Under the pieces are notes generated by a model. That model did no database searches. It had not been told where the DNA came from and saw nothing but the letters and a program-made list of their open reading frames with translations. From Bolinopsis microptera (Eukaryota > Ctenophora > Tentaculata > Lobata > Bolinopsidae), in assembly GCF_026151205.1 (NCBI RefSeq), contig NC_087081.1, positions 10,293,113 to 10,357,112 of the forward strand: a stretch of 64,000 nucleotides of DNA, read 5' to 3'. The translations under genes were made by a program, and so were the position numbers. How positions within the stretch are numbered: position 1 is the stretch's first letter; each line of letters starts with the position of its first letter. Shown piece by piece: positions 1,110 to 54,895 of the stretch.

Positions 1110-3887
1110 TCACAGATGATGGCTGGTTTCAAAGGTACGCATTATTTCTGCTTGCATGTTCATGTCAATGGACGGCATCATGCTTTGCCTCTGTCTGCGC
1201 TGCTCCTCTCTAAGTTTCTCTCTTCTTTCCCTTTCTAGTTCCTGTTTTGTCTTCTCCTGCACTACAGGAGGTGGAGGAGGAAGTGGGGGAGGTGTGGGTG
1301 GTTTAACTGGTTTCCTCTCAACTATTGAGTTTAGAGCTTCCTCTTCCTCTCGCTCCCGCTGTTTTTCTTCCTCCTCAAGCTTTCTGTCAGCTTCCTGACG
1401 CTCTTTCTCCATTTTCATGTTTTCCTCCTGCTGCAGTAGAGCCTTTTGTCGTTCTAGCCTTTCTTGGGCCTGCCTCTTAAACTCCTCAAATCGGGAAGTC
1501 TTCAAAACTGGATTGGATGTGATGTTTTCTTGTGCTAAGCTACCCCAGTTGTTTAAAGATGGTTTCTTTTCTAGCTCCAACGATTTGTTCATGTCGAAGG
1601 AGATTTCATGATCATCTTCTTGCTTCTTAAGATTGTAGATCTCCTGCGCTGTTGGGTCAGCAAAGCACTTAACATCACTTTCTGATATTTCTGATGATAA
1701 TAGTTCTGATGAAATATCAGGCGATTTTAAGGGGGATGATTTCAAGGGGGATGATTTCAAGGGGGATGATTTTAAGGAGGCAGCTTTTTGTTCCTTGGTG
1801 GGAATTTCAATAGGTTTGAGCTCAGCTTGTGGTTTTGGGATGTATGGAACGGGAGGAGACAGAACTGGAGAGGGAGCTGCAGGTGGTACTACAGACGGAA
1901 CAGAGGGTGGAGCTGCTGGAGGTTGAACAGCTTTGACGGAACTCACCTCTTCTCCAGAGCTAGATCCTTCTCCAATGGAATCAGAGCTAGAACTTGAGCT
2001 GAGCCGAGACATGTTCTGAGGCTTGGGCTTCTGTTTAGCAACACTCTTTTTTGGTGGTTTTGTTTCCTTAGGACGTTGCTCAACCTCTTGACTCTTTTTC
2101 TTTTTCTCTTTAGTAGTGTGGGTAGCACCTTTTTTGATCGATGGAGCTCTTTTCATCTCTTTTTGGCAGTCAACCACATACTGCTGAAGACCTCGTAATG
2201 TTGCAGGTTTAAGAGTCTCAAAGTCAATTTCAATTTCACCAGGAGTAGCATCCTTACCTTGTAGATTAGGCTCATGAGACTGAATAATCTGGGCTACTTT
2301 GCCCAACATTCCACCTGGAAGTCCATTGATATCCATACTAAGTTGACGTATTTCATCATAGGACATAGCAATAGGTGTAGTAGATGTTACTGTTGGGACA
2401 AGAGTTTCCTGTAGCTTAGCTTTACTGGCTGTTACCTTAGTACCTTTTGGTGTAGAAATGACTTTTTGGGCTTTCTTGGAAACCTTGGGCTCTTTTGGAG
2501 TCCTAGCCTTTTTAGTTTTTGGAGTGGCCATTGAAGGTGTCCTCTTTACTTTTGAAGAGGCTTTATATGATTCCAATTCAGCAAGCTTAGCTTTAATTAC
2601 TTTCATTTGATCTTGCAGTAACTGAATGTTTTTACCATATAAATCGTCATCTGAATCAATGGCATGATCTGAGCTATCTGATGAAGGGAGAACAGGTGTT
2701 TGAAACTTTGGTTTTGCGGGAGGTAATGTAGCCAAACCATTTTTAACTGGAGTGACCTTGATAGAGGAATTGACTTTGGGTTTAGAACTTGAAATATGAT
2801 TTCCAAGAGGAATCTTAGCAAATCTTGTTTCAAATGCAACTTCAAGTTCTTTTGCCATAGCAACAACATCATGATCTGGTGGATTATACTTATAACAATT
2901 ACTGAATATTAATCTGACTTCTCTAGCAAATTCCAAAGCTGAGCTGTACTGTCCGTTTTCCAATTTAAGCTTAAGAGTACCCAAGTCCATTGGCTCTTTG
3001 ATAATAGTTAAGTAATCATGCAAACCCAAACCTTTCACATCCACAGGAGTATAAAATGGCCATGCATAATTTGAATGTTTTCGACCTACCAATTCTTTGA
3101 TTAATGTCATACAGTTCTTTAGTTCATTGTTAGAAGCTGATGAAAAGGGAACAGTGGGTGGGAGTAAAACCTTCTTGGAAGCTTTATTCTTGCCAGCTTT
3201 TGAAATTACAGGAGAATGAGTGGTGGTGCTAACTTGATCGCTGGATTCTGGGGTAGTTGTATCTGCTTTCCTCTTTACACCCTTTTTGAGCTGAGATTTA
3301 GCAGGTTTAACTGATGAAACTGATGTGCGAGCAGGAGTCAAGTCGGATGTTGTAGTTGCAGGAACAACCTTAGTGGTAGGTTTCACTCCAGCAGGAGTTT
3401 TCAAGATGCGATGTTCAGGCTCATGGTCAGGGTAATCCCTCATTTTTGACTCGAAAACAGTTTCAAGGTCCTTTGCCATTGAGTAAATATCATCATCAGG
3501 TTTATTATAAAGAAAACAATTATCAAACACAAGTCTGATATCTGTCAAAGCCTCATCCCCCATCTGATACTCAAAGTTCTCAAGTTTTCGCTTGACAGTA
3601 CCAAGGTCCATGGGATTCTTAACAACATTGTAATAATCAGGAATGCCAAGCTCATCTGCATCAACAGCTTTCTGAAATGGCCAACAGAATCTGTTTTTCC
3701 ACAACACTTTCATGATTTTGTGCTGAATGAATTGTAATCTGTTGGTTGTAAAGTCAAACGTTTTAATCACTGGATGCAGTCTTTGCTCAATTGGAACAAT
3801 GTTCCCTTCAGCAGCTTCATACTTGGATGATGAACGTTTAACACGTTTACCAGCTGCACCACTATTACCAGAGGCTTCCTCACTCAT
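1110..3887 (-). CDS. BRD4: BET-family double bromodomain protein (BRD2/3/4, fs(1)h type)
   Basis: BET proteins bind acetylated histones and recruit P-TEFb and other factors to chromatin in the nucleus. The frame is one uninterrupted 925-residue exon. Bromodomain 1 is about 48-155, with WPF at 69-71 and the acetyl-lysine-binding Asn at 128 (LYNKP). Bromodomain 2 is about 253-360, with WPF at 276-278 and Asn 335 (KYNPP). The NET/ET domain is about 505-580. A Ser/Glu-rich stretch, a Pro-rich segment, a KSSPL tandem repeat (DNA about 1718-1780) and a long charged Glu/Arg coiled coil follow. The C-terminus ([15 protein letters not shown]) resembles the BRD4/BRDT/fs(1)h C-terminal P-TEFb motif, which favours the long BRD4-type form. 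The open frame begins three bases upstream at a GTG; the first ATG is at 3887. A single coding exon is unusual for a BET gene, although an intron in the 5' untranslated region is possible (an acceptor-like tract lies near 3955). Confidence 0.96.
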
Positions 3888-4461
3888 CACAAACCAAGAC
3901 GATGTTGCTTTGCTGCTGTTCAGGACATTTCAACAGGGCATGAGTTTTCAACAAACCTGCAACTGAGACAATTATCTCAATTGTGATGTATCTACTGCAA
4001 AATCATGTGTAAGTACTACCAAGAATTAAAACAATACAATTATATTTTATTATAAGTGACCAGAATTAGATATATTCAAAAATCTTATCTTTAAAATTTC
4101 TATAATCATAATTAATCGAGTTCTAAGACACAATTCACGATTGCAGGGTGTTTTCCGCCCTGTTTTGTTTTGACTTTCTTCACATTTTGTTGATTAAAAA
4201 CTAAAATACAGCCTGAACAATCAAAACAGCCAATGAATACACTAGAAGAGGCTATCTATTGATCCCTTCCCCCAATAGAAGGAATAATCAAAAGCACAAT
4301 CAGTGTACATTTGACCTGAACCTTTATAGGTGTTTCAATAACCTTGTTCTGATTGAGCAATGAAAAGCACTTCAAATTTCAGGATCCCACCTATTAATTA
4401 AGATGGCTTAACTGGGTCCTTTTTTACATCTGACAGAAAAGGTTGAAATCAAACAATATGT

Positions 4462-6345: not shown

Positions 6346-7862
6346 AATGCATTTGCATTGCATATACATTGTTGTGAATTAATATACATGTAATTATCAT
6401 CACATATGATCACTGATATCTTTGCCACATGTTGTATACTTACCTCGTGCATGCGATACCGATCAAAAAGTGTTGCAGCGTGTGTCAACTCAATTGAGTG
6501 ACAATAAAAATTCACCCCAAGTTGTTGCTAAAATATTTTTACACTTTTTACACTTCACAGCGAAGCTTGGCAGTTGAATTTTTAAATAGCGCGCGCCACT
6601 TTTTATCGAAATATTGGCCCGCGGCAAAGTGCTGCAAATAATGTCCGTATTAAATAAAACATAAAATAGTAAATGCTATTACGGGCAAAAAATGCATTTA
6701 TATATATCGTCTCGTTTTATATATAGTGAAATGAATTCGAATTTCTATTACATACAAGTTGCAAAAATGGTAATTTCAAATATTCCACATTTCGTGATAA
6801 TTTTAAAATTGAATAAGTTGTTTCATGACAAGTATATCTCAGAACATGTTTGTTTTTAATAAATGGCGAAGACTCACAGTGGCTGCAAAAGCGCAAATTG
6901 CAAACTAAGTATTTTGCGCGTTTTCGCGCGTTTTGACAAGATATATATTATAAGCACTCTTTAAATGCTTTTCATAAATTCAAGAACAATCCTTTTAGTA
7001 TGATTTTTAATACAACACATAATTATTGGTCTAAATATCATTATCTAGCAATTTTGAAATTTCTAGCTTAACTGTAAATAGAGTTAAGTGCATTTTAAAA
7101 CAAGTAAAAGTCCTCCATTTTGTTTTGATCATAACATAGGATTTCAAGGATTTCAAAGGATTTCAAAGGATTTCAAAATAAAATGATCATTACAATAAAC
7201 ATTGTGTCGGATCTAAATTTCAAAAAATAAAGATAAAATGAAAGTCAAAAACGAAAAAACCGAAACCTGTCCTGAAAAATGCACGGTTGACGGTTATAGT
7301 CTAAAGAGTTTAAAAACCGAGCTATTCTAAAAAGGAATGTTCATGACGCGAACAACCAGTCCTTTGTGTCCATGCCTAAGATCCACACATAAATTCCACA
7401 CTAAATCAAAAGTGTGAAACGCACACGAAAAATAACACACTGTCGGATCCACGTTTCGCATGTTGAGTCCGTGAGTCATGTTGTAGGTCCTTCCTATCCT
7501 TTTCGTTTAACATATGAAATAAGTAAAACTAAATGGGCATATTTACACGAAATGATCAGAAATTTTCTAATTAACAATACAGTCAAAGTTTCAAGTATAG
7601 GCAGGAAAATATTCAGAACTAAAACGTTCATCAAAGGTACATACAAATTATACTAGATTGGTAAAATCATTGACTTTAAATTGAACAAAATGCGCGTGAC
7701 GCGCGCAATCTTATATGCGTAGGTACGTGTTTCTAACAATATAACCTACGCAAAGGTAAAGACTACCCATCTCTAAAACAAAGGAAATGTTTTAATAACT
7801 TCTACTGGCCTTAGAGCATAACTGCTCTTTCCACAAGCATGATCAAATAACTCCTTCCGCAG

Positions 7863-8165
7863 GAAACTAACGCTCTCACAGGCTCCAAGTTTCATGATCA
7901 TGTAACCCTAAGTTTTGGTTTTGAATCGGACACTCAAAACAACGATATAAGAAGATCGGTCTACACGCTCACAGGCTACCACGTCTCGTGGGAACCCACG
8001 ATTTAATTTTGGATCGGACAATCAAAATACCGATATATATAAACAATAAAGGAGCGGCTTACACGCTCACAGGCTACCACTGACCACGTTTAGAGTAACC
8101 CAGGATTTGGTTAGGGTTCGGAAACTGAATGCAAGGATATAGGAGCGGTCTGCAGTGACGTTACA
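7863..8165. repeat. Degenerate tandem repeat of about 90-120 bp
   Basis: Three diverged units each contain a phrase like acacgctcacaggctaccac followed by a tract with ggatcggaca or a variant and a gatata tract. Divergence is high. No coding sense is apparent. Confidence 0.45.
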
Positions 8166-8460
8166 TGATTACAGGTATGGAAATATTCAGGAGCAGGACA
8201 TGGACACTGTGTGGTTCGAAATATAAATACTTAAGTGAGGGCCAGAGACAAGTTTCCGCTTATGACAGTACCTAGGCAACTGTGTATCCACTGTTTGATG
8301 ATTCCATTTAGCAGATTTAGAAGTAACACCCACCAGGAACACTGCATACTCCTACGAGTTGCACATAGCATGAGGCCATGATATCTCCTGGAAGTCCCTG
8401 TCTCTCCGTCTTTAACCCGACGGGGTTGCACCAGGGGTGATGGCAACAGAGCTTTCAGAC

Positions 8461-8516
8461 TCTCGGAGTCTGTAGTCGATATCTATGTTTAAAGATATCG
8501 ACTATAGACTCCGAGA
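8461..8516. repeat. Strong 24-bp hairpin just 3' of the RAG1-like stop codon
   Basis: The arm at 8461-8484 and the arm at 8493-8516 are reverse complements at 23 of 24 positions, with an 8-base loop. It begins about 147 bases beyond the RAG1-like stop codon on the transcribed side, so it would lie in that gene's 3' untranslated region. It could be a foldback remnant or an RNA hairpin; the sequence alone does not decide. Confidence 0.7.
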
Positions 8517-8662
8517 AAGAAGAATGTAAAGCCCTAACCCAATTCTTAACTAAAGCATGCAATGAAATATCATATTCTTACAATATCATATCAAATCGTC
8601 GATACAGTTTTTAAAATGTTTAAATTCGAGTGTTGACTGACTTAGCACGTACATCTTCACTT

Positions 8663-11600
8663 TCAGTCATCTTCATCGCTGGATTCTGTAAATCCTCTAA
8701 TGGCCTTTTTCAAGAAATTTAGCCCGCCTAACTCCGAGGAACTTATAACGTCGGCTGGATATAAGGACTTGATCTTTTTAAGTTTACCGTTACTATGCCG
8801 TCCCTATAAAAGAATACAATTATAATCTTTGACTTGTATATAAAAATAAATGTCTATTTACAAGCGCAAAATTGTATCGTCTCAGATTTCTGTTTAGTGC
8901 TTTGGGACTAAATCGATAAATATATTAGAGAGACGCTGGAAGCTATAGATCAAAGAGTCCTTAAATTAGGGTGGAATTTATAGCTAGGTGCAGCATATTG
9001 CAACAGACTCTATGTCTGTAAGAAATTGGATTACCTCTTTTAAACTTGCTCTAGGAATTCCTTCAACAATGTGATTTAGGAACAGATCGCCACGCAAAAT
9101 CGATGTTTCTAGTGTCTGGCCCAGATTTTTGGCGTAGTTTCCAAGCCAAGACCGGGAACTCCTGTAATTTATACTGTTTATCAATTATGTAATAATCTCT
9201 GATCTACGTAATACGAAGAGAAACGAGACTTCAGAGATCTCCTGGATTATGCTGGAGCGTGAAAGAATAAATCTAGCAATTTTGGATCGGACGTACGTTA
9301 TTAAAATTTATTCTGCAATAAACGACGAAAAACGGTGATATTATTATTAATAAAAGTGCTTACCTTATATTTCGGACATCTTTTTGCATATATTCTATTC
9401 CCTCCTCCGACATATTTTTGAGGCCACGACATTTGTTGTTCTTTATAATTTCCCAGCTGTGTGCCAGAACCTGAGACAAAACTCATTTTAATAAGTTACT
9501 TAGTACTGGAAATGTAACTAAGTGTTAATTCTTAACTAAGTTATTCATTATTGGATTAGGACCAGCTACTGCTAGGAGAGCACCTGGGACTACTATGCAA
9601 TCTCCTCTGGTCCACTCAGCTAAATCATTAATAAATGATCGCGAAATCGATTGAATGTTATATGAGGAGTGACCTTGCCGAAAGACCGACGCAATTTAGA
9701 TTACACAGTAAACAAATGAACTGTTCATATCTGACTCACATCATGTAATGTTTCATTCATTCTTGCCCAGGGAAAATGATTTATTACTAGTATACCGATC
9801 GTGTGGCATAAATGTTTATAAACTGTCAGATCTATCTCTTTCCCCGTGTTAAGGACTCTAATGACTACATAGAGGAGCTCCGCGATCTTCCCCACTTTTT
9901 TTCCATCGCCTTCGTCTTTCAAAAGTGGCGGTAGGACGCTATAGGCATAACAAAGGAATTTCTTCGCGTGATTTCCTAAAATAAAATTAATTTTATCAAG
10001 AGGTTAGTGCAGTTTTGTTACATGTTTAGAATCTTAGCTCCCTTATTTCTATTTTATCGTTACATTAATTACTGTACTGCCGTTGTGCTGGTATTGCATG
10101 CTAATTATTAAAAGTAATAGTACAGGATGCTATGAATTTACAACAGCGTTTGTAAAATTAGTAATTACTAATTATGTATCTAGATTTAAACCTGTAAGAC
10201 CACTACCCGTATTCCCATGTCCAACATCCTTTAACGTCAGCCTCTGCGGTCCTTGCTTTAACTGAAGAAAGAAAACGATAACCTATTATATAGGACAAGA
10301 AAACTTATTACTATTAGTTAATGTAGGCACACAAACAAATATATGTTAAGGATGATATGGATTTAGTATGTTATTTTCGGATTGCTTAAAACTTAAAGTT
10401 TGTTAACTAATTTGTATATAATATATTTTAGTTAGCCACATTAGATTTTTATTTAATCATTAACCCGTTAACCGGCGATATAGCTTGCCAAATTAACTCA
10501 CCGCGACAAGAATTTTGTCCTCTTCAATCTTGAACTGAGCTTTTAGAAATTCTCCCCTCATCTCCCACGTTTTAGTTCCTGTATACGACTGAGTCGAATA
10601 ACTGCAAATTGTATTTTTAGCGATCATGAGTTAAGATTCTTGAACAAAACAGTAACAGCAAAATTGATAATTTGCTCGTATATCTTAGACTTAAGACGTT
10701 GTAAATCACAAAACAGTGCAGCGTGCACACACTACGCTCTTAAACATTGTTTATCAGTTATTTTGCTAATAGAAATATAATCAGGATCCAAACATTTTAG
10801 AGACGTCAATTATTTGTACAGTATCAGTGAAAAGTGCGATATAATGAAAGATACGATTAAATTCCTTCAAGCAATATACTTACATGTTTGCTTTTGTAGC
10901 AAGTTGAACCACCCATTTAGCGATATTAAGAGAAGCATGGGTAACGACCACGCCTTCCGGGAGACCATAAGGTATTTGTGTCCAACCGTCCCTTTCACCA
11001 CTTTTTTCGCTTACATCGATTAGTCCATTAGCTGCTAAATACTTTTTGTACTCCCCCATCTTTTCTTTTGTGTTGTATTCAATGAAAGAGTCCTGAAATA
11101 ATAACGACGCCCCGCGTGTGTTATTAAGATAACAGTGCCTCACAGTCACACAGACAAGGTGCCTCACACAGTAAAGGCTGATACATCCTTTGTGTAGTTT
11201 GTCGAACTTTCTTGCTTTGATACCGGACAACCCTCCGGTCACCGGCTACAGCTGCAGTTGGTCAAACTCACTGCAGTTGACTACTCGCCATCCAGATGGT
11301 CTGATATCTGATGACACTTCCGGCTCCACGGATAAACACAGCGAAGTAAGTAAATAATGAATAATTTTAGGGCATCAATAATCAAATCTTAATGATCACA
11401 GCTTAAAGTCAAAGTTTAACAAAAAATCGTACCTCAACCCTCACTCCTGCTGGGGTGTGGTAGTCTTCTATCGTGGTGCTGCAGTGGTAACAGTATGCCC
11501 CCCCTCTACCCATCATAGCCTTCCGCGACTTCCCGTCCACCATGCATGTCGAGTACTCACTGTACACTATCACCTTCCTCTCGCCCATTTTAAACGTATA

Positions 11601-14600
11601 AACTTCCTTTCCGTCGGGGTATCTGCCGATTATCATTAACACGGTTGAAATTACGGTTTGAAATATCGTTATGCCATATATGGCATCTTGGAATTGGAGT
11701 TTCATCGAATATTCAACATGCTTAATATATAAATTAAATATATTAAAATAAATAAGGATATTCAAGATAAACTAAATGACGGACATCAACAAATGTACCG
11801 ATGTACGATTGTACGCTAATGATTAAAGTTAAGTTCCTTAAGTAGATATAGCCACAAATCATATAATTATAAATTTCGATTAGATGTTGTACTAACTTCT
11901 CCATTAGGAATTTTTGGAGATCTGCAGACTCTGCTTCCATGACCAAACTTAACACCTTCATAATTTTATATGAGTTTGGTTTGGTGCATTTGTACAGCTC
12001 TTTCATGGGAGTCGCGTCATTTTTACCGTCGCCCAACTGCAAAGTAGAAACATTTAGCACTCTAGTGTTCTTAGACTTAGAGTTAGTTAGTTTACTGGGC
12101 CGCGCTCTATTTATGAACATGATAGCCTGAGGTCCCCAGGTAATTAGTTAGTATGAAATATTTTTATAGACAAGAACTAAATTCTTTCTCCGGTAATCCA
12201 ATTAAGACGTCCGCAACACTCTAATTCAGAACTTCTCCCTCAATATGCTCCCTGCTCCAAAATAAACAAATAACGCGGCATTCCTCTTCCAACAACTATT
12301 TCAGTGACCCGTAGGCTTAAAGTAAACATGAAACATAACACCTATTTAGACCGCAGGAGAAGAAAACAGGCCTAAGTGGCATAAAACTGGAGAATAAAGG
12401 GCGCCAAAGATGGTCACGTAACTATACAGGTCAACGTGGCACTAGAAGGTAGACTTTGAAATATCATTGAATCAGATTCAGAATCAAATTTAAGGAAATG
12501 ATATTATTGTAAGAATTCCTGAAACAAATAATATCATGTAGCTTACGTCATTTTCTACGGCAGTTGAACAAGTTTTTAGGACTATCGCAAATGTCTGGCA
12601 TGACTTCAGACTATGACCCACTTTTGAGAGTTTTATGGATTCTTGATCAAAAATTTGGGGATGCGAACTGGCACCATCAAATCCTGTAAAGATATCAATA
12701 TTAAAACTACAAATGATAATGATAAACCCCGCCAACCAAAGGATACACCGCCATCACCAACAACTCACTGCTGGAATGGAATTTACAGAAAGATCTGAAC
12801 CAGGAATGAATGGAGGACGTACTAGTTACTGTTGTCCAGAAGCGACCCTGCCAAACCAACCTAAAGTAAGTAAACTATACTCATGGAATGCAGCGGAATA
12901 TTAAACACTTAGAATATTGCGATTTGCAAGTATTAACTTATTAACACAAACATACCCTGATTAAATTGCATGTGAAGGATAAGATTGGTGTCTGGAGGCG
13001 TGTCCCTGACACATATCTTGTTAAGCTCGATGAGCTGTTTAATGGTAAGAAGAACCATATGCCGCCGCTTTACAAAAACCCCAACCGGCAATTTTTCTTC
13101 ATTCCCTGTGTCAATGAACCTGTAGAAATAATAAGTGATTATAAGTTAAATGCGATATTGGAATGAAATGTGATATTCAATTCTATGAGACATGCTCATG
13201 ATCATACGAGCAAAGTGCCACAAACTTTATAAACCTTAAATTAGTTTCATGATTACGGAAGGAATAGAATGTGTAGGTATCAAACGGTGTTAATGTTAGA
13301 TGCGGTCGTAAAAACCGATACTTCCTGGGAAAATTAACTTTAAAACATGTACTGTAAATATACTATAAATTGTAAGTTGACAATCGTGCTTCTATTAACC
13401 TGTCCATATGATAGCCTGGCAGGCGCCTCTTCTTTTCTTTGCGGATAACTCTTTCTCCAGGTACATACAACCCGAACTTCTTTGTAAATTTGGAGATGCC
13501 GTTCGAAGTTCGCTTGGTGGCGTTGAGTTGTACCATGTGAGCCTGTATTAAATCATTGTTTGATTTCAGCTGTGACTAAATATGTAATCCGGTTTCTTGA
13601 ATAAAGTGGGGCTCACTCGTACGACGTTCTCACGCTTATATTGAGGCTGCAAAAAGAGGAAAAAAGGCAGCGATCCTTATAACGGGAAGCATATAATCGA
13701 GTTGACAACGGTGGAACAAATACTTACAAGAGTTTCAATCCCGGATGGACCCTTTTTAATATTTTCACTGCAATACTTCTTTTTCAGCTTGAGGAATATC
13801 GTCTTCCTCACAGATCTAGGCGTTTGCTATGTTAAGAATATTGATATAATTAGTAAATTAAGTCAATGATGACATTAAATGATTGGGTAAAGCGTGACAT
13901 TCTCTTTCCTTAGTTATAAAAAAATTGGACCAACCTGAATTATAGAGTTTTGGATTCGGTCAAAACTTTTTGTTATTCGTTTTCTTTGTCCTTCACGAGT
14001 CATTTCAGAAAATTGACACCTTGGGCCACGGGAGACTACTGGATTTACATTTCCCTTCAGATCAAATACAACGTCATCCAAAGGCGGGTAGTTTTTTTTT
14101 TTTCGTTTTTAAATCACTCAGTTTCTTCCGCTAAAAATTAGGTTAACGTTAAACACAGCTCAAATTGGTGTGAGTAAGAGTCAACCACGATCATATAATT
14201 GGAAATTAGTATGCAGTACCTATAACTAACCTACTTGTCTTGTCATGATTTGGAGCAATATGGTAGCAACAGCCTTATAATTATCTGACAAAATTATCTA
14301 ACAAATGTTATGTTATGATTGTGAAAACTTACATACGCCACAATCCTGTTTTTTGCACATCTTGAGACCCTTTTGTGATCGGAATCCAATAACAAGTTCT
14401 CCTGTTCTATAAAGGCATTCATAATGTGAGTCTCCGTAACTTTCACATTGTGTCCAACTTCTTGTTTACATATTTTAATGATCGAGTTCATTCTGCCGTG
14501 AGTTAGAGCTAGGAGAGGTTTACTTATCTTACGCCTCTTCCCACTTCCATTTTTCGGGGTGCTAGCCATCCTATTCCGATTAGAGCTGCTTCCGCCTAAA

Positions 14601-17600
14601 AATGTTCTGTTATATAGGACGAATCGGCCAAAATAATAAAATACCCGGTACCATCCAATAAATCATTGTTAATTCATTAAAATGAATTTGTATTTGTGAA
14701 ACCTGTGAAATAGCGGCCTTGGTCCGTCGGAACTATAGTAAAATGCAGGGTAATTCGGTAATCTGTCGATGGTCACTTAAGGTACAGTTGGTGTTACGGC
14801 ACGGTTAACGCCGAAATAACGGAGACTCAATGCACGGTGTGTTCACGCTAGAGGCACGTTTAAGTTTTAACGCACAATATCAATATGGTTACTTAAGGAA
14901 AGGACATTTAACCGTGCATTTAATTAAGTGACCATCGATAGAATTCCAAATTGCCCTTACCTGATATCGTTTCCTCATCAGAATCAGATGAACTTTCTTC
15001 TCGATATCCATTCTGACCTAGATTCTTCAGAAATACTGGTTCTGGCGTAACATTTGTCTCAGAATTCATTGACTGACCTGATAAAATCACCAAGCTTTTA
15101 TTATTATATATTATTGAAAATTATTAAATAAATAGAGTTTCTACTAGAGTGACCTCGACTGCAAAGCCATTAATAAACCAATCGGCAGTCGGCAACTTTC
15201 CTCTCACCCGGAGTAAGCTGCAACCCTAGGGACTAGAGGATAGCAAGAAGTACAAACGGAACATTATTTTGATTATTGTACACGGCACAGTGGGCTACCA
15301 TGCTAGCATAGGCCTAAAATCGACTTTCTTAAATTTCTTTGAAAATAAGCTTTCCTTATTGTAAAACGCTAGCCCGATTTCATGCAAAAAACCGTAATTA
15401 AAAACTTTGCAAGATGCCAAAATGGCGTCGCGTGAAAAAATAGCATTTTTCACAGTCAAGAAATTTTGCCTTTTTTAGCCAAAAATTGCCTAATATTTAT
15501 TATTTTGGGCTAAAATGCTTGATCAAGGCAGTTTTTAATAATTGAAATACAGTATAGTACTTCAGAATACTCAGCCATCTAAAAAAAAATGTGTGACTTT
15601 AACATTTTCACCTGATTTTTGACCGCGCCTTTTTTATGGCGTGTATTTTAGGCAATTTTTGGGGTATTTAACGACAGAAATCGTTGTTGGTTTGCAATAG
15701 TTCGGTATAATGCATGGTATCATCAGAAAGCTTAGACAATTCCCTATCAGATGCAATAAGAATCACTTTGGGCAGTTTTGGGCAACTCTGTTTACAAAAT
15801 TAAGAAACTCAAAAATTGGGTAAAATTTGCTTCATTTTTAGATAATTTATGAGCTCAATTTTGCTATAAAATTGACATATTTTAGTTATTCTCCATGTTT
15901 GTGGCATTTTTTGCACCCTAGACCAGATGCATATGGATGAAAAATCAAAATATCACAATTATTATAGTTAAAATTGATAAAAATCCAAAAAATCGTGATT
16001 TTAAACGAAATTTTTGAAAATAACAGGAACAATTTTGGTGTTTCAGAAAATTTTGGTCATATAAATAGGCACAACTTTTGTTCTGATCAATATTTTTTCA
16101 TAATTCAAAAAGATTTGAGTTCCTAAGATAGCTGTCCTTCGTTTACAGTTCATAAAAGAGCTTTAAAATTGATTAAACCTCTAAAAAAACAACTTTTCCT
16201 GGGATCAGCCTCCTATTTTTGTACTACAAGATTGCTCAAAATCGGCCCAAAATTTTTTTCTGAGACATTTTCGGCCCTGTAAATGATTGGAATCGTATTT
16301 TTGTACCCAAATTACCTTAGAAACAAAGTTAGGGGCATGTGTGATGGTCTAAAATACCCTATGCTAGCATGACCCCCACTCACAGCCCACTGTGCACGGG
16401 CAATTCATAATCATTGTATTTTCGTTTCGTGTGTGGGACTGTCATGGGACATCTTTCATATCACGTCCGATGAAAGTGGACTCACTACTAGGCTATCCAT
16501 TATCGGTATGAAATCTTTTATCTAGATAAACAGATAAAAATTTAGGTTTTATCTAGATAAAACCGATAAAACCGATAATTTTTCTGCTGAAGGCCAAAGC
16601 CAAAATGTTTTCCAAATTTCACAAAAACTGATTGTCGACTTTTATTACTGTTTACCAGTAATCTTGCTAAAGTACAATTTCCTTTCTTTTGAAAATATTA
16701 GAGCATCAGTTTTCTTCTCCGGGGAACAATAGTGTACCAGTTCTCTTCAAAACAGTAGACCAACGGTTTGTCTTCTCCTAAGAACAGTCGTGTACCAGTT
16801 CTCTTCAAAACAGTAGATCACCGGTTTCCTTCTCCTAAAAACAGTAGTGTACCAGTTCTCTTCAAAACAGTAGACCAAGGGTTTCCTTCTCCTGAGAACA
16901 GTAACGCACTAGTTCTCTTCAAAACAGTAGACCACCGGTTTCCTTCTCCTGAGAACAGTAACGCACTAGTTCTCTTCAAAACAGTAGACCACCGGTTTCC
17001 TTCTCCTGAAAACAGTAGTGCAACAGTTCTCTTCAAAACAGTAGACCACTGGTATCCTTCTCCTGAGAACAGTAATGCACTAGTTCTCTTCAAAACATTA
17101 GACCACCGGTTTCCTTCTCCTGAGAACAGTAACGCACTAGTTCTCTTCAAAACAGTAGACCACCGGTTTCCTTCTCCTGAGAACAGTAGTGCACCAGTTC
17201 TTTTCAAAACAGTAGACCAAGGGTTTCCTTCTCCTGAGAACAGTAACGCACTAGTTCTCTTCAAAACAGTAGACCACCGGTTTCCTTCTCCTGAGAACAG
17301 TAACGCACTAGTTCTCTTCAAAACAGTAGATCACCGGTTTCCTTCTCCTGAGAACAGTAGTGCACCAGTTCTCTTCAAAACATTAGACCACCGGTTTCCT
17401 TCTCCTGAGAACAGTAGTGCACCAGTTCTCTTCAAAACAGTAGACCACCGGTTTCCTTCTCCTGAGAACAGTAGTGCACCAGTTCTCTTCAAAACATTAG
17501 ACCACCGGTTTCCTTCTCCTGAGAACAGTAGTGCACCAGTTCTCTTCAAAACAGTGGACCACCGGTATCCTTCTCTTGAGAACAGTAGTGCAACAAATAC

Positions 17601-18911
17601 CAATTCTCCTCGAAACAGTAAAACATTTAAAGTGATTCAGTGAACCGTTTCCTTATCCTGTGGATAACTTGGAGCAACAGATTCCTTCTCCTGAAGACAA
17701 TGTTTCACGCCTAGAACACTTACGGAATTTAATTGAGTGCCCTGCCGCCTGCCGGTATTTTTGACTCTTGTTAACAGTAACATGCTCGTTCCTGTCTCCA
17801 GAATGGTTCAAGTAAGGTAGAACGCCAGCACCCTAGCCTCAACTTCAAGATAACAATGTCAATAACTTTCTCTAGACTTCTACAGTTCTACAGTTCTACA
17901 GTTCTACAGTTCCATAGGTATACAAATGTAAATAAACCTCTTAAGCTCACATTTAAGTAAACTACCTCTTCTATCATACTATAAAACGTTTGGGACTGTT
18001 TCTTGGATTACTTGGGAAGGCAAAAAACACTAATATTTCTTTAAAATTTTACGGTATTGTGGCAGTTTTTTCGGTAATTTCTAGTGAATTTTTATACCGA
18101 TAAAAATATGTTTTATCTAGATAAACAGATAACCTTTTTTAACGAATTATCGGAGATAATTATCGGTAACGATTATCGGAGTGGATAGCCTACTCACTAC
18201 GAGACTCTATTTGTGAGAGATTTCACGGATTGAGTTGTCACAGTCTGATCGTACTCCATGCTTAGTATTGCCCGTAATGTTCTGACTTGACCGGTCAATT
18301 ACAAATATCTCTATTAATATTATAATCATACCTTTTGAGATAGACTGAAGTATTATATCTCTATATCCAGCTATATCGTCCACGTTAGTTTCGATTTGAT
18401 CTAGTACATTACTTTCATTAAACTCTGTATCGGATTCGGACCCAGTCGACTCTCTTTCAATATCCATTATTTCTTGTATCTCTTGATTCGCTAAACAAAA
18501 GTAGTTTCAGATGTCTAAAAAATCCATAACTAAAGAGCTTTATTAATCAAATTCGATCGAAATTTTAATTAATACTGTAATACATTGTAATTAATGCAAA
18601 TGGCATAAAAGTTAAACGGGCAACGAAATTTTTACGGCTTTTTAATCTAAAGTACCGCACGCTGGTAAGCATTTGCAGTGTAACTGTAATCCACGACCGA
18701 CCTATAAAATATTATTATTAATATTTGTGCCAAAACATATAAATATATTAAAAATAAACTATAAAGCGTGTTCTATTTACACTTCAACATTTTACTCACA
18801 AAGGATGCGTTGGGCAGTCCTACTCTTGTCTCGTAAGGAGTATTTCCTGATCTCCTTGTGAGAATTAGAAGTAGAAGTTTCTTTGGTAGAAGTCATACTC
18901 GCAGACTCCAT
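8663..18911 (-). CDS. RAG1L: RAG1-like (Transib/RAG1 superfamily) protein, 19 exons
   Basis: Exons in transcript order: 18911-18800, 18490-18332, 15077-14961, 14595-14333, 14130-13935, 13826-13728, 13646-13617, 13542-13400, 13119-12956, 12683-12547, 12036-11897, 11622-11433, 11092-10884, 10601-10502, 10261-10192, 9975-9740, 9470-9364, 9161-9035, 8803-8663. All junctions keep phase and give about 912 residues. RAG1 landmarks recalled from vertebrates: GKRRK then LLALT (about 148-161, nonamer-binding-like), LPGYH (366-370), FDG with Asp430 (D600 position), CYHC (C564/C567) with H787/H792 (LHDVLAH), GNHAKKFL (710-717, like GNFARKLM) and MSEEGIE with Glu814 (E962 position). The D708 position reads THAS, giving Ser637. 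There is no RING region; the N-terminus is acidic and Ser-rich. Exon 5 has a 12-base A run (14091-14102 as T) where 11 would keep frame, so it is either broken or holds a sequencing error. A vertebrate-like V(D)J role is not implied. Confidence 0.88.
9545..9705 (+). mobile_element. Decayed SINE 3' fragment in a RAG1L intron
   Basis: The stretch with ctctggtccactcagctaaat, followed by gcgaaatcg and atgaggag, matches in order the body of the SINE at 41158-41405 (cggtccactcagccaaat, gagaaatcggg, atgaggag). Only the 3' half is recognisable. It lies in the intron between exons 16 and 17 of the transcript. Confidence 0.55.
12085..12145. repeat. Fragment of the cctgaggtccccaggta repeat family
   Basis: The segment tactgggccgcgctc, then gaacatgatagcctgaggtc and cccaggtaa, matches the end of the repeat cluster at 49.1-50.4 kb (for example 50355-50430). 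It lies in the RAG1L intron between the exons ending at 12547 and starting at 12036. Confidence 0.6.
14747..14957. mobile_element. MITE-like inverted-repeat element touching a RAG1L splice donor
   Basis: The left end (agggtaattcggtaatctgt...) and the complement of the right end (agggcaatttggaattctat...) match over about 35 bases, including the shared core cgatggtcactta. The right terminus stops at the fourth intron base of RAG1L exon 3 (donor GT at 14960-14959), so part of the donor context comes from the element. No clear target duplication was found. Confidence 0.55.
15286..16394. mobile_element. Non-autonomous Transib/RAG-type transposon with CACAGTG ends
   Basis: The left end reads CACAGTGGGCT inward and the right end reads the same inward on the other strand. 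The direct repeat CACGG flanks both sides (15281-15285 and 16395-16399). A 5-bp target duplication with CAC-starting ends is typical of Transib and ProtoRAG elements; CACAGTG is the consensus RSS heptamer. Both ends then share the block CATGCTAGCATAGG, after 6 bases on the left (15293-15298) and 16 on the right. The 1,109-bp interior is AT-rich with no credible reading frame. It sits in RAG1L intron 2 (15078-18331). A hAT assignment was considered because the sequence CAGTGGG occurs, but 8-bp flanks do not match. Confidence 0.8.
16489..18192. mobile_element. hAT-like non-autonomous element carrying a 57-bp minisatellite, copy 1
   Basis: Perfect 11-bp terminal inverted repeats (TAGGCTATCCA) are flanked by the 8-bp direct repeat CTCACTAC (16481-16488 and 18193-18200), the hAT signature. 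Subterminal TTATCTAGATAA and ACCGATAA motifs lie at both ends. The centre (about 16700-17640) is about 16 copies of a 57-bp unit. As 57 is divisible by three, the array stays open on both strands: frames of 291 and 167 residues begin at non-ATG codons or within repeats. They are best read as a by-product, not genes. A 10-bp repeat (tctacagttc) lies at about 17878-17915. The copy at 27768-29471 has the same length. Confidence 0.92.
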
Positions 18912-20090
18912 TTTTAACTAAAAAGTACAACTTTACAAGCCGGTAACCACATAAATCAACAGTAAAAAGCGGAATATTTGTGGTTGATAAAGTAATGGTG
19001 TTAACAGGGAATAATAGAAACCTGTGGATAATTGTTAAAATACGTGACTCATAAGTCCGAAAATCCAAGAAGGGGTGTTTTAAAACTTCAGACGAATCTG
19101 AACTATTCTATGGACAAGTCTAAGCGGATGGTCTACAAAACGAAAATTATGCTGACTGCATAAGTATGTGGCCCTAAAGAACAAAGAAGAAAGTAGTATA
19201 ATGTAGCATTTATAAATTCGGAAAACGTACTGTAACAATTTAAAGCAATGCGAAAGCTTTTTATGCATTGACGTGCGACCAACATTGGTTGATCAGGCGT
19301 TGATCGCGCTTTGGAATAGTACGCAAAGAAATGACCCTAGATTGAGCTCTGGAAATCTAATTTTTGAGTGGAGCTCTTGTGGAAGAGGTATTGCAAATTA
19401 AGGCTGCCTGGCATGTGGAACTGTGGAAGAGGCAGAAAAGTTTGCGGAGAACATTGGTCCTAGCTGTTTTTTGTTTTATCAAAAATTGTGTTGAATGTGC
19501 GCGGCGTGATCGCGCATTTTAAAAATATTTGTGCAAATATGGCAAAATCATACGTTCGCGTTGTCAATGATAAATTGACGTATAAGGTCTACTTAGTTCG
19601 ACTGACGGCGGGGCGCCAAATTTGTGTGCTAGTTGCAGCGCAGCCACTGTGAGACTGTATAAAATTGGAAATATTAACAGCTCTGTTAATGTACGAATTA
19701 AAAATAATGTATTTGAAAGTCAATGAAACAAGAAATTTCTATGAAACAATAAATTTAATTTTAGCACATTTTACAGAATAAAAAGATGTAAAACAATTCA
19801 TAAAATAAAATGCCCATTCGGTGTATGATTTTTTGTCCTTGACTGCTAGTTTGGTTTTGGAAGGACAGGTAACTAACGGGGTAAGGAATGCGCGTGGTGA
19901 TGATGTTTATGTTGTTATTCCTGATTTGATTTGTTACCTCAATACACAAGGTTTCAAAAAAAGGCGACTAAGCGATCAATATTTATTACTCAAGAAGTAA
20001 CCCAAAAGTAATTCAATTGGAGAACAAAAACTTCACTCACATGCTTTTCTTAACTTTTAGTTGAATTTGCATTGAATGGCTTACATGTCT
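18912..20090. other. Upstream region of the RAG1-like gene
   Basis: The RAG1L start codon is at 18911 with context ttaaaaATGG, so this interval should hold its promoter. I see no coding sequence and no repeat that I can name. Confidence 0.4.
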
Positions 20091-27500: not shown

Positions 27501-30500
27501 GTAAGTAGGAGCGTTTTACACTGCCTAATGTACAGTCTATAATATGTCAAACATGTCACGTATAATATTCTTTAAATAGAGTGTGGCATTTGAATTTCCT
27601 AATTATTTAAGTGACCTTAAGGGGGGGGGGGGGGGGGGGGGGGCCAATGGGTATTTTTTGTGAAACTTGATTTCGAGATAGCAAGTTGACCAACAAACTA
27701 GGACCAGTGACCGAACTTTTGAGGGGGTCCCGGACCCCAACCGCCAAACGGTGCGCGCAGGGCAGCCTAGGCTATCCATTATCGGTATGAAATCTTTTAT
27801 CTAGATAAACAGATAAAAATTTAGGTTTTATCTAGATAAAACCGATAAAACCGATAATTTTTCTGCTGAAGGCCAAAGCCAAAATGTTTTCCAAATTTCA
27901 CAAAAACTGATTGTCGACTTTTATTACTGTTTACCAGTAATCTTGCTAAAGTACAATTTCCTTTCTTTTGAAAATATTAGAGCATCAGTTTTCTTCTCCG
28001 GGGAACAATAGTGTACCAGTTCTCTTCAAAACAGTAGACCAACGGTTTGTCGTCTCCTAAGAACAGTCGTGTACCAGTTCTCTTCAAAACAGTAGATCAC
28101 CGGTTTCCTTCTCCTAAAAACAGTAGTGTACCAGTTCTCTTCAAAACAGTAGACCAAGGGTTTCCTTCTCCTGAGAACAGTAACGCACTAGTTCTCTTCA
28201 AAACAGTAGACCACCGGTTTCCTTCTCCTGAGAACAGTAACGCACTAGTTCTCTTCAAAACAGTAGACCACCGGTTTCCTTCTCCTGAAAACAGTAGTGC
28301 AACAGTTCTCTTCAAAACAGTAGACCACTGGTATCCTTCTCCTGAGAACAGTAATGCACTAGTTCTCTTCAAAACATTAGACCACCGGTTTCCTTCTCCT
28401 GAGAACAGTAACGCACTAGTTCTCTTCAAAACAGTAGACCACCGGTTTCCTTCTCCTGAGAACAGTAGTGCACCAGTTCTTTTCAAAACAGTAGACCAAG
28501 GGTTTCCTTCTCCTGAGAACAGTAACGCACTAGTTCTCTTCAAAACAGTAGACCACCGGTTTCCTTCTCCTGAGAACAGTAACGCACTAGTTCTCTTCAA
28601 AACAGTAGATCACCGGTTTCCTTCTCCTGAGAACAGTAGTGCACCAGTTCTCTTCAAAACATTAGACCACCGGTTTCCTTCTCCTGAGAACAGTAGTGCA
28701 CCAGTTCTCTTCAAAACAGTAGACCACCGGTTTCCTTCTCCTGAGAACAGTAGTGCACCAGTTCTCTTCAAAACATTAGACCACCGGTTTCCTTCTCCTG
28801 AGAACAGTAGTGCACCAGTTCTCTTCAAAACAGTGGACCACCGGTATCCTTCTCTTGAGAACAGTAGTGCAACAAATACCAATTCTCCTCGAAACAGTAA
28901 AACATTTAAAGTGATTCAGTGAACCGTTTCCTTATCCTGTGGATAACTTGGAGCAACAGATTCCTTCTCCTGAAGACAATGTTTCACGCCTAGAACACTT
29001 ACGGAATTTAATTGAGTGCCCTGCCGCCTGCCGGTATTTTTGACTCTTGTTAACAGTAACATGCTCGTTCCTGTCTCCAGAATGGTTCAAGTAAGGTAGA
29101 ACGCCAGCACCCTAGCCTCAACTTCAAGATAACAATGTCAATAACTTTCTCTAGACTTCTACAGTTCTACAGTTCTACAGTTCTACAGTTCCATAGGTAT
29201 ACAAATGTAAATAAACCTCTTAAGCTCACATTTAAGTAAACTACCTCTTCTATCATACTATAAAACGTTTGGGACTGTTTCTTGGATTACTTGGGAAGGC
29301 AAAAAACACTAATATTTCTTTAAAATTTTACGGTATTGTGGCAGTTTTTTCGGTAATTTCTAGTGAATTTTTATACCGATAAAAATATGTTTTATCTAGA
29401 TAAACAGATAACCTTTTTTAACGAATTATCGGAGATAATTATCGGTAACGATTATCGGAGTGGATAGCCTAGGGCAGCCACGCCCATATTTTGTCCAAAT
29501 TAGGTCCAATTTAGCCAAATACCCTGAACTTGCCCAAAAGCCAGGTTTATAGTGCTCTACTTGTAGCTAGTGCAGTGGTCTCCTGAACTCGTATATGAAA
29601 TTTCATCAAGATTGGACAAAAAATGACTGAGTTATGGGCCAAAAACCATATGCCCATATTTGGGCATACGCACCAAATTTGGTAGATTTTGTCCCATAAA
29701 TTGGTCACTATCAATATAAAATATGAATATCTATATAAAATATGAAAATCAAATAAAATATGAAAATCATATAAAATATGAAAATCAATATAAAATATGA
29801 AAATCATATAAAATATGAAAATCAATATAAAATATGAACCTATGTTAACATTAGATATTTATAAATATTTAATGTTAACATAAATACAAAATATGATGAC
29901 TGTCAGTTATTGTTGTATATTATGTATAATGTATATTAGTATATTGTGATAATCATCTATTAGCCAGTAATATACAGTACGCTCTCTCCCTCACTCTCCT
30001 CTGTACTTATAGAGGGAGGGAAGGTGCCGGGGGAGGGGACCACATAAAGAGGGGACCACAGAGGAGAGGGGACCGCGGGGGGATCGGGAGGAGGGCAGAT
30101 ATTTACCTCGGTGTATTTAAAGTCATTGTTGTTTTACCTGTATCTTGTAACGTAATGATTAAATCACTTTTGTTTCAGATATCTGGCGCTGGAAAGTTTA
30201 ACTAAGTTGGCTGTGTCTGATTTTAGTAGGAAAGCTGTTATGAAACATCAGGAGACCGTTGTGCAAGCTTTGAAGGTACGTTCTCAGGGGGGCTCACGTT
30301 CTCAGGGGGGGGGGGCCGGGGGGCTCACGTTCTCAGAGGGGGAGGGCTCATGTTCTACGGGGGGGGGGGGGGGGGCTCACGTTCTCAACATTGTTCCCTT
30401 TAGTAATGTAACACCCCTGTTCCATGCCCAATGAACGATGAACGAGGATGCACACGAGGATATGATTTCCATAATTTCGTCGAAAATTCATATAGGTATC

Positions 30501-36500: not shown

Positions 36501-39500
36501 AGGTCAAGGCAAGTCAAAGCACATGACTTAAATTACTCGACTTAAGGCGGCTTCAGAGTCCGACTCTCGATGATGTGTCTCCAAAGCTTTCTGTCCGCCA
36601 TAAGCTCCTTAATCTCTCCAGTGTTCTTGAGTCCAGTGTCACTTATTAGGTTATCGACGAAGGTGAGCGGTGGTCTACCCCTCCCTAGGTTCCCAAAGGA
36701 GAAGTTGGTGTGCTGCCAGGTCATCATGTCGCTGGATGTGCCCAGCCAACCTCATTCTTCTGGCCTGTATCTTCGAAATAACTCTTGGGAGTGATCCAAA
36801 GACCTCCTTGTTGATGCGATGTCCTCTCCAGTCCACGTTTAGGGCCATCCGAAGCATTCTACTGTAACATCCGTCTATTCTTTTCTTCAAAGAGTCTGTT
36901 ATTGTCCACGTTTTCGTTCCATACAGGAAGATTGATTCAACCGTAGCTTGAACAGACGGATCTTTAAATCTCGGCGCAAATTGGACCTCCATATAGCCTA
37001 CATTTTGTGGTAGGCAGCCCATGCCTTGGCCTTGCGTAACCTAAAGTCGTGCTCCGTTGTACTAAAATCCTCAACTTCTTCTAAGGCATGTCCGTCCTTA
37101 GAAATTATTGTGTGTGGCTCCTCTCCTACTAAATTAACTGTAAGATCCTTGGTTTTAGACAAAAGAGATTTCCTGCCTCCTCATCAGATGAGGCTTCTGT
37201 AGGACTGTAGCATGTGATGACAGTGAGCCTGGGCTTTCCATTAAGAGACATGGTGAGGATCCTTGCGCTGTAAGATTTTATAACTTTATAAGACTTATAG
37301 CCTCATATGCTGTCCTCGTCAAGATGATTCCTACTCTCCCATTAGAAGCGCCAGCTGCGTTTCTCCACGCAGATGAGATCACTGGATGAATCCCTTTGTT
37401 CATCTTTTCTATTCTGGTATTCTCAGCAATCAGCATGCACTACCCGATGTGCAGCTTGCTTCGAGAAAATAGTTCTTCAAGTTCGATGCGTTTGTGCTGT
37501 TCTCTGGCTGTTCTTATGTTAAACGTGCCAACCTGAGCAGCCCTTTTACATGATACAATGCAATTGATGTTCATATTTTTTTGATGTTTTCTTGTTTGAC
37601 TTTCCGTAGAAATAGGTTGTCGTGTTGCATTGTGGAGACCGAGTCATCAGCTTCTGTAATAGCAGCGTAATTACCCCGGCAACCACTTCCACTAGAAAAA
37701 TAAGGGGCTTTAACCCTTAAGCTGTTGATAAACTTCATCTTGACTTTTCAGTTGGCTCACAATCCCGTGCAGTCCCCTGCACATTGGCAGTGGATTGTGT
37801 TCTTAACTCTTGCGCCACTAAAAGGTTAAGGGCATCCGCTTGAACAATAGCCATATTTAACTCTCACCATAATGTCTTGGGTATCTTGAGCATGTAATTG
37901 CACGAACATATGCTATACAAGACAAATGTGACACTTCCTTTTTCTACCCAACAGCATCAGTTGTAATCCTTACCCAATCGTCACCTGCTCCAGTGTGGGA
38001 CTTTTTATCCCAAAGCATAAAGAGGTTAGAGTGAGAACAGAGCTACACTTTAGCGGGTACTAACCCTTCCCCTGACTACCTCGTTACCCGGTACCCCGGG
38101 CATAGGAAGCCGTATCCTGACTACCAGAGTGTGGTCCAGTCTAGCTGGGTCATAGTAGACTAGGTTGAACAGGGTAACAGCCAACACCTCTTTAGCTACT
38201 GTGCAATCCACAGTAAAGATTTACGAGTCTCAAAGCCTCTTGTAGACCAAGATTTAAGGAGTCAATAGATCAAATTATTGAACTTCCAGGGCTCAATGTC
38301 TCCCGTCGACCGTCCTGCCTTTAGCTTGGACCCCCTGTCCAGTATCCAGTCTTCACCACGCGGAGGTAGTGGCTTTCATCATGCTGTCCGATGAGTGTCT
38401 GGAAGAGGGCACCAGCAGGATACCCCTTTTCAAAGTTCGGGAGCCTCACATCAGACCAGGCCTTCCACCCAGCTTGAACTATCCAGCGGTGACGCCTTGG
38501 GCCACCTAAGCTTCACACAACCATTGAAAGACCACCTGCCTACGTCTGTAAAAATTTTGATGATGCGATTATTACAGTCGAGGGTCTGATGCTGTACATT
38601 CTCAGTGTAACAGCTGACAACAGTTATCAACACTTTATGCCCTGGCTGTTTACATCCGATGCCTGCGAGCAAACTTTATGCTTTCCTGCGCATAGGCCTC
38701 CATGCAGGCATTAGAACTAATCTGTGTTCTAAGGATATGTTGGTTGGCATGGGCAAATCAAACCGTTCCCTCGAGCTTGATGCACTCTGCAAAAGTTTGA
38801 TCCCTGTAACAGTTGCCCACTCTCGCAACAAGCTTGTTATACCGCATCCGAAAGCAGAGAAACTATTTTGAGGTAAAGATACTTCAATCCCAAGATTGTT
38901 CCAAGCTATGAAGAAGGGAGTCTCAAGGGGTAGAGAACTCATTCAAGAACACTGTAACTTTGAAGGAGAGGCTTTCCAACCATCTTCTGACGGAGCAGAG
39001 AGTGACGAAGCGGAAACAGATGATGACGAAGAGGAAGTGGAGGATATTGACTCATCAGAGGAATGGGCGAAAATAGTAACTGTGTATGGTGATGCTCTGC
39101 ATCATGATACGGCTGTTGAGGTTTGCCTCAATGGAGGGCGGGATCGAATGCCATCCCAGTCAAGATTTTAGCGACTCCAGGGCCATAAACAAGCAAAGAT
39201 ATCACTTAATATCACATGTGATCATGCAGCCGATGGTAACTGCAAGATTCTCTCAGTTGGAGATAGAGCATGGTTTCTCGTTAAGCGGATGATCAGGAAA
39301 ACGGAAACAGAGATCGTGAAGGTGAGAAGAAAGGCTTTATTCCTCTCGTACCGGTTGCGGTCAGGGTTGGGGTCATCACTGAGTTGCGTCCCTACTAACT
39401 CAATTTGCCATGGCCATCGAAGTGAGCATTACAATTTACATATGGCTGATATCATATCTGGATGGCCAACTTCTTCTGAGCACATCAGTGAATAAAATAC

Positions 39501-54500: not shown

Positions 54501-54717
54501 CCACACGCCTGATAAACATACGGATCATTTTCACACACAGAGGAGACATTTGAGAGCGTGTTACGCTCACTACCCATTACATAGCTAACATTCGAATAGG
54601 CACACATGTGAAAGTACTCTTTTCTACTCTCATCAAAACAAAGTTTCTTCAAAAATCCACCAATGTTTGTTATAGCGCAATTTTTGTGTGATACGTCCCG
54701 ATTTTCCTTTGCACATC
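51536..54717 (-). CDS. LDLa-repeat seven-helix receptor, large 3' exon
   Basis: One 3,182-bp exon with about 1,060 codons. The acceptor ttttccag is at 54721-54718 and takes phase 1, matching the SRCR exon upstream, so this is the end of a longer gene. The extracellular part is Cys-rich and has many N-x-S/T sites. Clear LDLa units read CLVHKHKLCDGFSDCVDGSDE, CIEYSQVCNLVDDCGDLSDE and CDGRFDCFDLSDEC. Seven hydrophobic helices start about two thirds along (from NCWLLGLLAAIFNVIMV) and end with the class A motif NPLLY; the usual DRY position reads IRMW. LDLa plus rhodopsin-like helices recalls the GRL101 and relaxin-receptor (LGR type C) families, but I see no leucine-rich repeats. There is no signal peptide in this exon. 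The ligand is unknown. Confidence 0.88.
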
Positions 54718-54895
54718 CTGGAAAATTGCTGGGTAAAAATTGCTATTCAAAAAATTCCAATAGAACTACAAAGTTTTGAGAACTATCTGTTGCACCTTAA
54801 ATTTTTCCCTACTGATCGACAATATGAATATGACTTTTCTGTCCTGATTAATCAAAATAAAATGTTGGTGTATTACATATTAATTTACATCAAAC

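Follow-up and report, generated by a model that had tools for sequence, protein, structure and literature searches.

A probable Transib-superfamily transposon with an intron-rich transposase gene in the ctenophore Bolinopsis microptera

We analyzed a 64,000-nt stretch of the genome of the ctenophore Bolinopsis microptera (NCBI RefSeq assembly GCF_026151205.1, contig NC_087081.1, positions 10,293,113 to 10,357,112 of the forward strand; hereafter, the window), which carries a multi-exon gene of the RAG1/Transib transposase family on the minus strand, from an ATG at 18911 to a stop codon at 8663. Judged from its sequence, this locus is very probably a full-length DNA transposon of the cut-and-paste type, belonging to the Transib superfamily, from which RAG1 arose, and its single recognized gene is predicted to encode a DDE transposase of ~960 residues in ~20 exons. 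An initial annotation had taken the gene to be host-like, either domesticated or long resident. This view is contradicted by the transposon ends, by exact target site duplications (TSDs) in all of the copies where both ends were found, by six derivative copies that are ~99% alike, and by a tree in which the protein groups with Transibs. Together, the intact ends, the TSDs, and the recent relatives make it most likely that this is a jumping gene unusually rich in introns rather than a tamed host gene. A RAG1-family gene of ~20 exons within such a transposon implies that intron richness alone is no proof of domestication.

The element spans positions 6875 to 19651 on the minus strand (12,777 bp including nested insertions), with boundaries that are common to its derivative copies. 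It is delimited by the terminal inverted repeats (TIRs) CACAGTGGCTGC, located at 6875 to 6886 (plus strand) and at 19640 to 19651 (minus strand), each of which directly adjoins one copy of the 5-bp TSD AGACT (6870 to 6874 on the left and 19652 to 19656 on the right). At both ends, the first seven bases of CACAGTGGCTGC are identical to the heptamer of the recombination signal sequence (RSS), CACAGTG. The TIRs lie outside the gene, by 1.8 kb at 6875 and by 0.7 kb at 19651, where the initial annotation had seen no terminal repeats. Longer end words, allowing at most one mismatch, occurred at 17 places in the genome for the right end and at 15 for the left, while a reversed-pattern control yielded 0. 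An exact 5-bp TSD was present in 13 of the 13 copies where both ends were found, namely, the window copy, L001 to L006, L008, L009, and those at C6:14.81, C2:20.19, C5:15.09, and C1:15.77 Mb (the last being L010); of the C6 copy, whose ends are 11.6 kb apart, just the ends were read. The genome lists also included solitary ends, four of the right type and two of the left. The outer ends corresponding to 6875 and 19651 recurred in nine of the ten derivatives that we fetched; the remaining one, L007, has only a left end, of a variant type, with no right end in the genome-wide right-end list. An empty target could be recognized for one insertion: L001 sits within a repeat of which the window contains an empty copy, at ~36689 to 36693, where the target word GTTCC is present once. 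The two ends of the window element also differ in spacing, with CAAATT following after 12 and 20 bases, an asymmetry that is not significant as 247 of 2000 shuffles do likewise.

A search of the same genome with the protein gave 63 matches, which were exon-sized, spread over many places, and in several cases forming groups of six and of four that scored almost equally. Ten copies, fetched with their flanks alongside twelve further regions, proved to be shortened derivatives of the element. Six of these (L001 to L006) were 99.1 to 99.9% identical over ~5.3 kb (L002 over 4.9 kb), and L007 to L010 showed an identity of 96.8 to 98.9%. The close likeness of the six indicates that the family moved recently. 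A stretch at 7138 to 7507 is missing from the derivatives, reflecting either an insertion in the window copy or a deletion in the derivatives.

The gene model comprises 20 exons (2,881 nt) with GT-AG borders in 19 of 19 introns, and it replaces the 19 exons and 912 residues of the initial annotation, which had also left the minus strand unstated. The N-terminal part is formed by exon 1 with the ATG (18800 to 18911), exon 2 with an acidic region (18332 to 18490), exon 3 (14961 to 15077), and exon 4 with a basic region (14333 to 14595), the last two being present also in L027, a diverged relative at C3:18.49 Mb. The basic region is a candidate for a nonamer-binding-like domain, a likeness that serves as a lead only. 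Exon 5 (14235 to 14273) has a weak acceptor; exon 6 (13935 to 14130) has a one-base frame problem in a run of 12 A (A12). There follow exon 7 (13728 to 13826), a 30-nt micro-exon 8 with an uncertain donor (13617 to 13646), exon 9 with LPGYH (13400 to 13542), and exon 10 (12956 to 13119). Introns 4 and 12, which separate exons 4 and 5 and exons 12 and 13, respectively, have weak splice sites, and other placements are possible there. Fragments of exon 10 and of a stretch near window positions 10016 to 10107 were also seen, with in-frame stops, in L028 (C8:1.60 Mb) and L029 (on the 19.6-kb contig C152), which may represent additional copies in decay or a derivative that was rearranged.

The remaining exons carry the catalytic and zinc-binding residues. 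The first catalytic Asp lies in exon 11 (12547 to 12683), in a GFDGASSH motif that aligned with GFDGSGGH of L021, a Transib of the same genome, and with GFDGASNQ of HzTransib in single BLASTP comparisons (E = 0.002 and 0.003, respectively). Exon 12 (11893 to 12036) contains a KPNS block, exon 13 (11433 to 11720; weak acceptor) the second catalytic Asp (MVDGK) and the zinc CxxC, exon 14 (10884 to 11092) a conserved His (VTHASL), exon 16 (10192 to 10261) the sequence GNTGSGLTG, exon 17 (9740 to 9975) the first zinc His, and exon 18 (9364 to 9470) the second zinc His together with the catalytic Glu (SEEGIE). Exons 15 (10502 to 10601) and 19 (9035 to 9161) complete the model with exon 20 (8663 to 8803), which includes the stop codon and an acidic tail, FTESSDEDD. 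Across nine aligned proteins, the second Asp, the CxxC, the conserved His, both zinc His (H....H), and the last Glu were invariant, and the GNxA block had its G in nine of nine and its A in eight of nine proteins. The first catalytic Asp, the CxxC/HxxxxH zinc site, the GNxA block, and the final Glu, which the initial annotation had pointed out, are borne out by this alignment or, for the Asp, by BLASTP. We take the last Glu and the middle His to correspond to mouse E962 and H795.

Membership of the gene in the RAG1/Transib superfamily is supported by these motifs and by protein searches. With the spliced C-terminal part (722 aa), phmmer against the Protein Data Bank (PDB) returned the transposase HzTransib (PDB 6pqn; from Helicoverpa zea) at E = 9.5e-7 and 30.8 bits, and lancelet RAG1L at E = 0.13 and 13.8 bits. 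In the search of its own genome, the protein matched intron-poor Transib frames, at E = 1.5e-14 for a locus on C3 and 7.2e-10 for one on C2. A profile built from the window protein and three Transibs of the same genome reached 2.9e-28 for HzTransib, 1e-18 for RAG1L, and 3.6e-11 for RAG1, where the added rows may carry the RAG1 matches, as one of them alone gives 1.9e-16 for RAG1L and 6.5e-10 for RAG1. Like the window protein, HzTransib has the DDE motifs (GFDGAS being identical), the CxxC, the H....H, and SEE..E, and its heptamer-like ends and 5-bp TSD are those expected for a Transib. It differs in size, with a solved chain of 497 residues compared to ~960 residues, ~20 exons, and an acidic tail in the window. 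No relatives of the element were found in prokaryote genome contigs or viral contigs.

In a maximum-likelihood tree, two vertebrate RAG1s and the lancelet BbRAG1L were split from the six other rows with support of 100/100, which places the window protein with the Transibs. The initial annotation's claim of a RAG1-like gene holds for the superfamily, by way of HzTransib and the Transib side of the tree. The same split speaks against a RAGL transposon, i.e., one of the RAG1L-RAG2L type, that has shed its RAG2L. A long N-terminal part, many exons, and an acidic C-terminal tail would suit such an origin, and ProtoRAG/RAGL elements (BbRAG1L, PDB 6b40) share with the window the superfamily, the zinc and catalytic residues, and the possibility of introns; heptamer-like TIRs and 5-bp TSDs are described for RAGL transposons too (Martin et al. 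2020, PMC7204232). The top PDB match is nevertheless HzTransib rather than RAG1L, and the Cx2Cx3GHx4C tail motif, given for RAG1L by the same authors among the RAGL hallmarks, was absent from all six frames of the window element, while L022 from the same genome carries one. RAG2, kelch, and PHD models of Pfam found nothing when the element was translated in all six frames, with stops written as X, a scan in which exon-sized pieces are hard to match and the transposase itself was missed; its one match, CGLA_C (0.053), was below the cut-off. The RAG2 model likewise had no match in the whole genome, a weak test since it was silent in control genomes too. We consider a RAGL origin very improbable.

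The closest relative in the tree is a second intron-bearing family, family D, which joined the window protein with support of 100/99. Family D comprises L024 to L026 (C3:21.05 and 21.07 Mb and C5:19.25 Mb), its end begins with CACGATGGGACC, and it is 35% identical to the window protein over 278 columns (24 to 53% in single stretches). Read by eye, introns 16/17 and 17/18 occur at the same place and in the same phase in both families, and the acceptor of window intron 13/14 agrees as well; window intron 18/19 is missing in family D. Introns at the same place and phase, at least two in number, indicate that some of them predate the split of the two families. Three other Transibs of this genome, L021, L022, and L023, are open across those places. 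The unusual feature here is the intron-rich gene beside intron-poor Transibs of the same genome. As a separate observation, L024 and L025 lie at ~0.2 Mb from the contig end and face in opposite directions, with matches ~12 kb apart; the long stretches common to both are 99.8 to 100% alike.

Several observations weigh against our reading of the locus as a full-length Transib transposon. The Pfam RAG1 model (PF12940) matched neither the spliced protein nor the window locus; in this genome it had matches at two other loci only, and a Pfam scan of the spliced protein returned just TMEM70 (0.023) and DUF5677 (0.058), both below their cut-offs. The kinship rests on HzTransib, the Transibs of the same genome, and the alignment. 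The tree was built from nine rows of the C-terminal half with a midpoint root and few reference rows, with L027 to L032 (short or partial) and L025 and L026 (same family as L024) left out; among its other Transib branchings only that of L021 and L022 was resolved, and the branch leading to the window protein is long. Contrary to the initial annotation, not all exons splice in phase: exon 6 (196 nt) is one base in excess, sited in the A12 run, with the frame otherwise kept. L027, which matches parts of exons 1 and 3 to 7, is in frame at that position, although it is itself partial and damaged, with a 17-letter gap in exon 7. The break may be a sequencing error or a real frameshift, and a full-length protein from the window copy depends on it. 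The ratio of nonsynonymous to synonymous rates between the window and the partial L027 was 0.77 to 0.81 (190 codons of exons 3 to 6, with gapped codons, stop codons, and exon 7 dropped), which gives no strong signal of recent constraint. Identity to L027 was 87 to 98% in introns 4 to 6 and 85 to 93% in exons (47 and 57% in introns 3 and 7), so that, with introns 4 to 6 as similar as exons, exon conservation is no argument at that range.

A further point of this kind is that the derivatives resemble the window copy only moderately, with 70 to 88% identity in internal stretches (82 to 83% for most of the six). At the ends, the likeness is higher: 93 to 97% over the first 263 to 274 bp at the left (nine copies with a left end fetched), and 95 to 98% (right, five copies) and 97 to 98% (left, four copies) over the outermost 60 columns. 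Going inward, identity mostly drops on the right side, with no clear drop on the left. Internal stretches at 70 to 88% with ends at 93 to 98% suggest that the derivatives came from a close sister with the same recognition ends and not from the window copy.

Could the gene instead be a host gene, domesticated from a Transib or RAG-like transposon whose ends survive around it as remnants? Its intron richness would fit, and the protein search of the assembly, which sets a lower bound on their number, turned up no other complete set of coding exons. Autonomous Transibs are, according to Kapitonov and Koonin 2015 (PMC4411706), typically present in one or few copies. In sea urchin RAGL genes, introns have been read as a hint of possible function (Yakovenko et al. 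2021, PMC8355894), and bat star RAG1L and RAG2L are given three exons by Kapitonov and Koonin. Yet the element retains its two ends intact along with a perfect 5-bp TSD, the family is not confined to a single locus and has recent derivatives, intron positions are common to another family, and exon 6 has its frame problem. Domestication is accordingly a most unlikely account of the locus.

As a cut-and-paste transposon, the element would be expected to work as follows: The transposase would bind the CACAGTG ends, cleave by the nick-and-hairpin route that HzTransib and RAG follow, and insert with a 5-bp stagger that leaves the 5-bp duplications. Since the element would move as DNA, its introns would be carried along. 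The window protein, or a close relative that was lost or is unassembled, might mobilize the shortened derivatives in trans.

Six ctenophore Transib-like proteins were reported by Tao et al. 2022 (PMC9435367), who defined subgroups I and II; one of their figure legends names Mnemiopsis and Pleurobrachia. Compared by description, their subgroup I Transibs resemble the window element in a place on the Transib side of the tree and in a ctenophore host. They differ in that the window element is without Cx2Cx3GHx4C (taken as the CTT1 tail) and its end asymmetry is not significant. Among the matches listed in our literature search we saw no description of an intron-rich Transib, as far as titles and abstract openings go, which does not establish that none exists. 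It is conceivable, if on balance doubtful, that the element belongs to an old, intron-rich, RAG2-free Transib lineage outside subgroups I and II, without the known tail motif and still mobile in a ctenophore, which kept its introns through transposition since the split of the two families (now ~35% identical). If so, introns can persist through transposition, and many introns in a RAG1-like gene would be no mark of domestication.

Intron 2 of the gene is swollen by two nested insertions. The first (15286 to 16394) is a nonautonomous Transib of another family, with CACAGTGGGCT ends and the TSD CACGG, whose first 499 bp are 98.4% identical to an end of L022. In this window copy, the 14-bp word CATGCTAGCATAGG lies 6 versus 16 bases after the heptamer at the opposite ends, an asymmetry of one helical turn that none of 2000 simple shuffles reproduced and that is reminiscent of the 12/23 RSSs. 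The end word of this second family has 40 occurrences in the genome (control, 0), and its coding relative L022 (1164 to 5090) has TIRs matching at 11 of 12 positions and the TSD TATCT, the search having required a 5-bp TSD. The nested family is like subgroup I in its one-turn asymmetric ends and in the Cx2Cx3GHx4C tail of L022. The genome holds several Transib lineages side by side, of which two have heptamers that read exactly CACAGTG, and this should make it useful for studying how RSS-like ends work without RAG2.

The second insertion (16489 to 18192) is a hAT-like element with a minisatellite, flanked by the 8-bp TSD CTCACTAC. It forms a pair with another copy at 27768 to 29471; both are 1,704 bp long, differ by one base, and have exact 8-bp TSDs (CTCACTAC and GGGCAGCC, respectively), and the pair is very recent. 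Both copies carry the same minisatellite, which opens a spurious 294-aa frame. Elsewhere in the window, long minus-strand frames at 1110 to 3929 and 51536 to 54742 resemble, by eye, a bromodomain protein and a receptor that carries LDL-A-like repeats.

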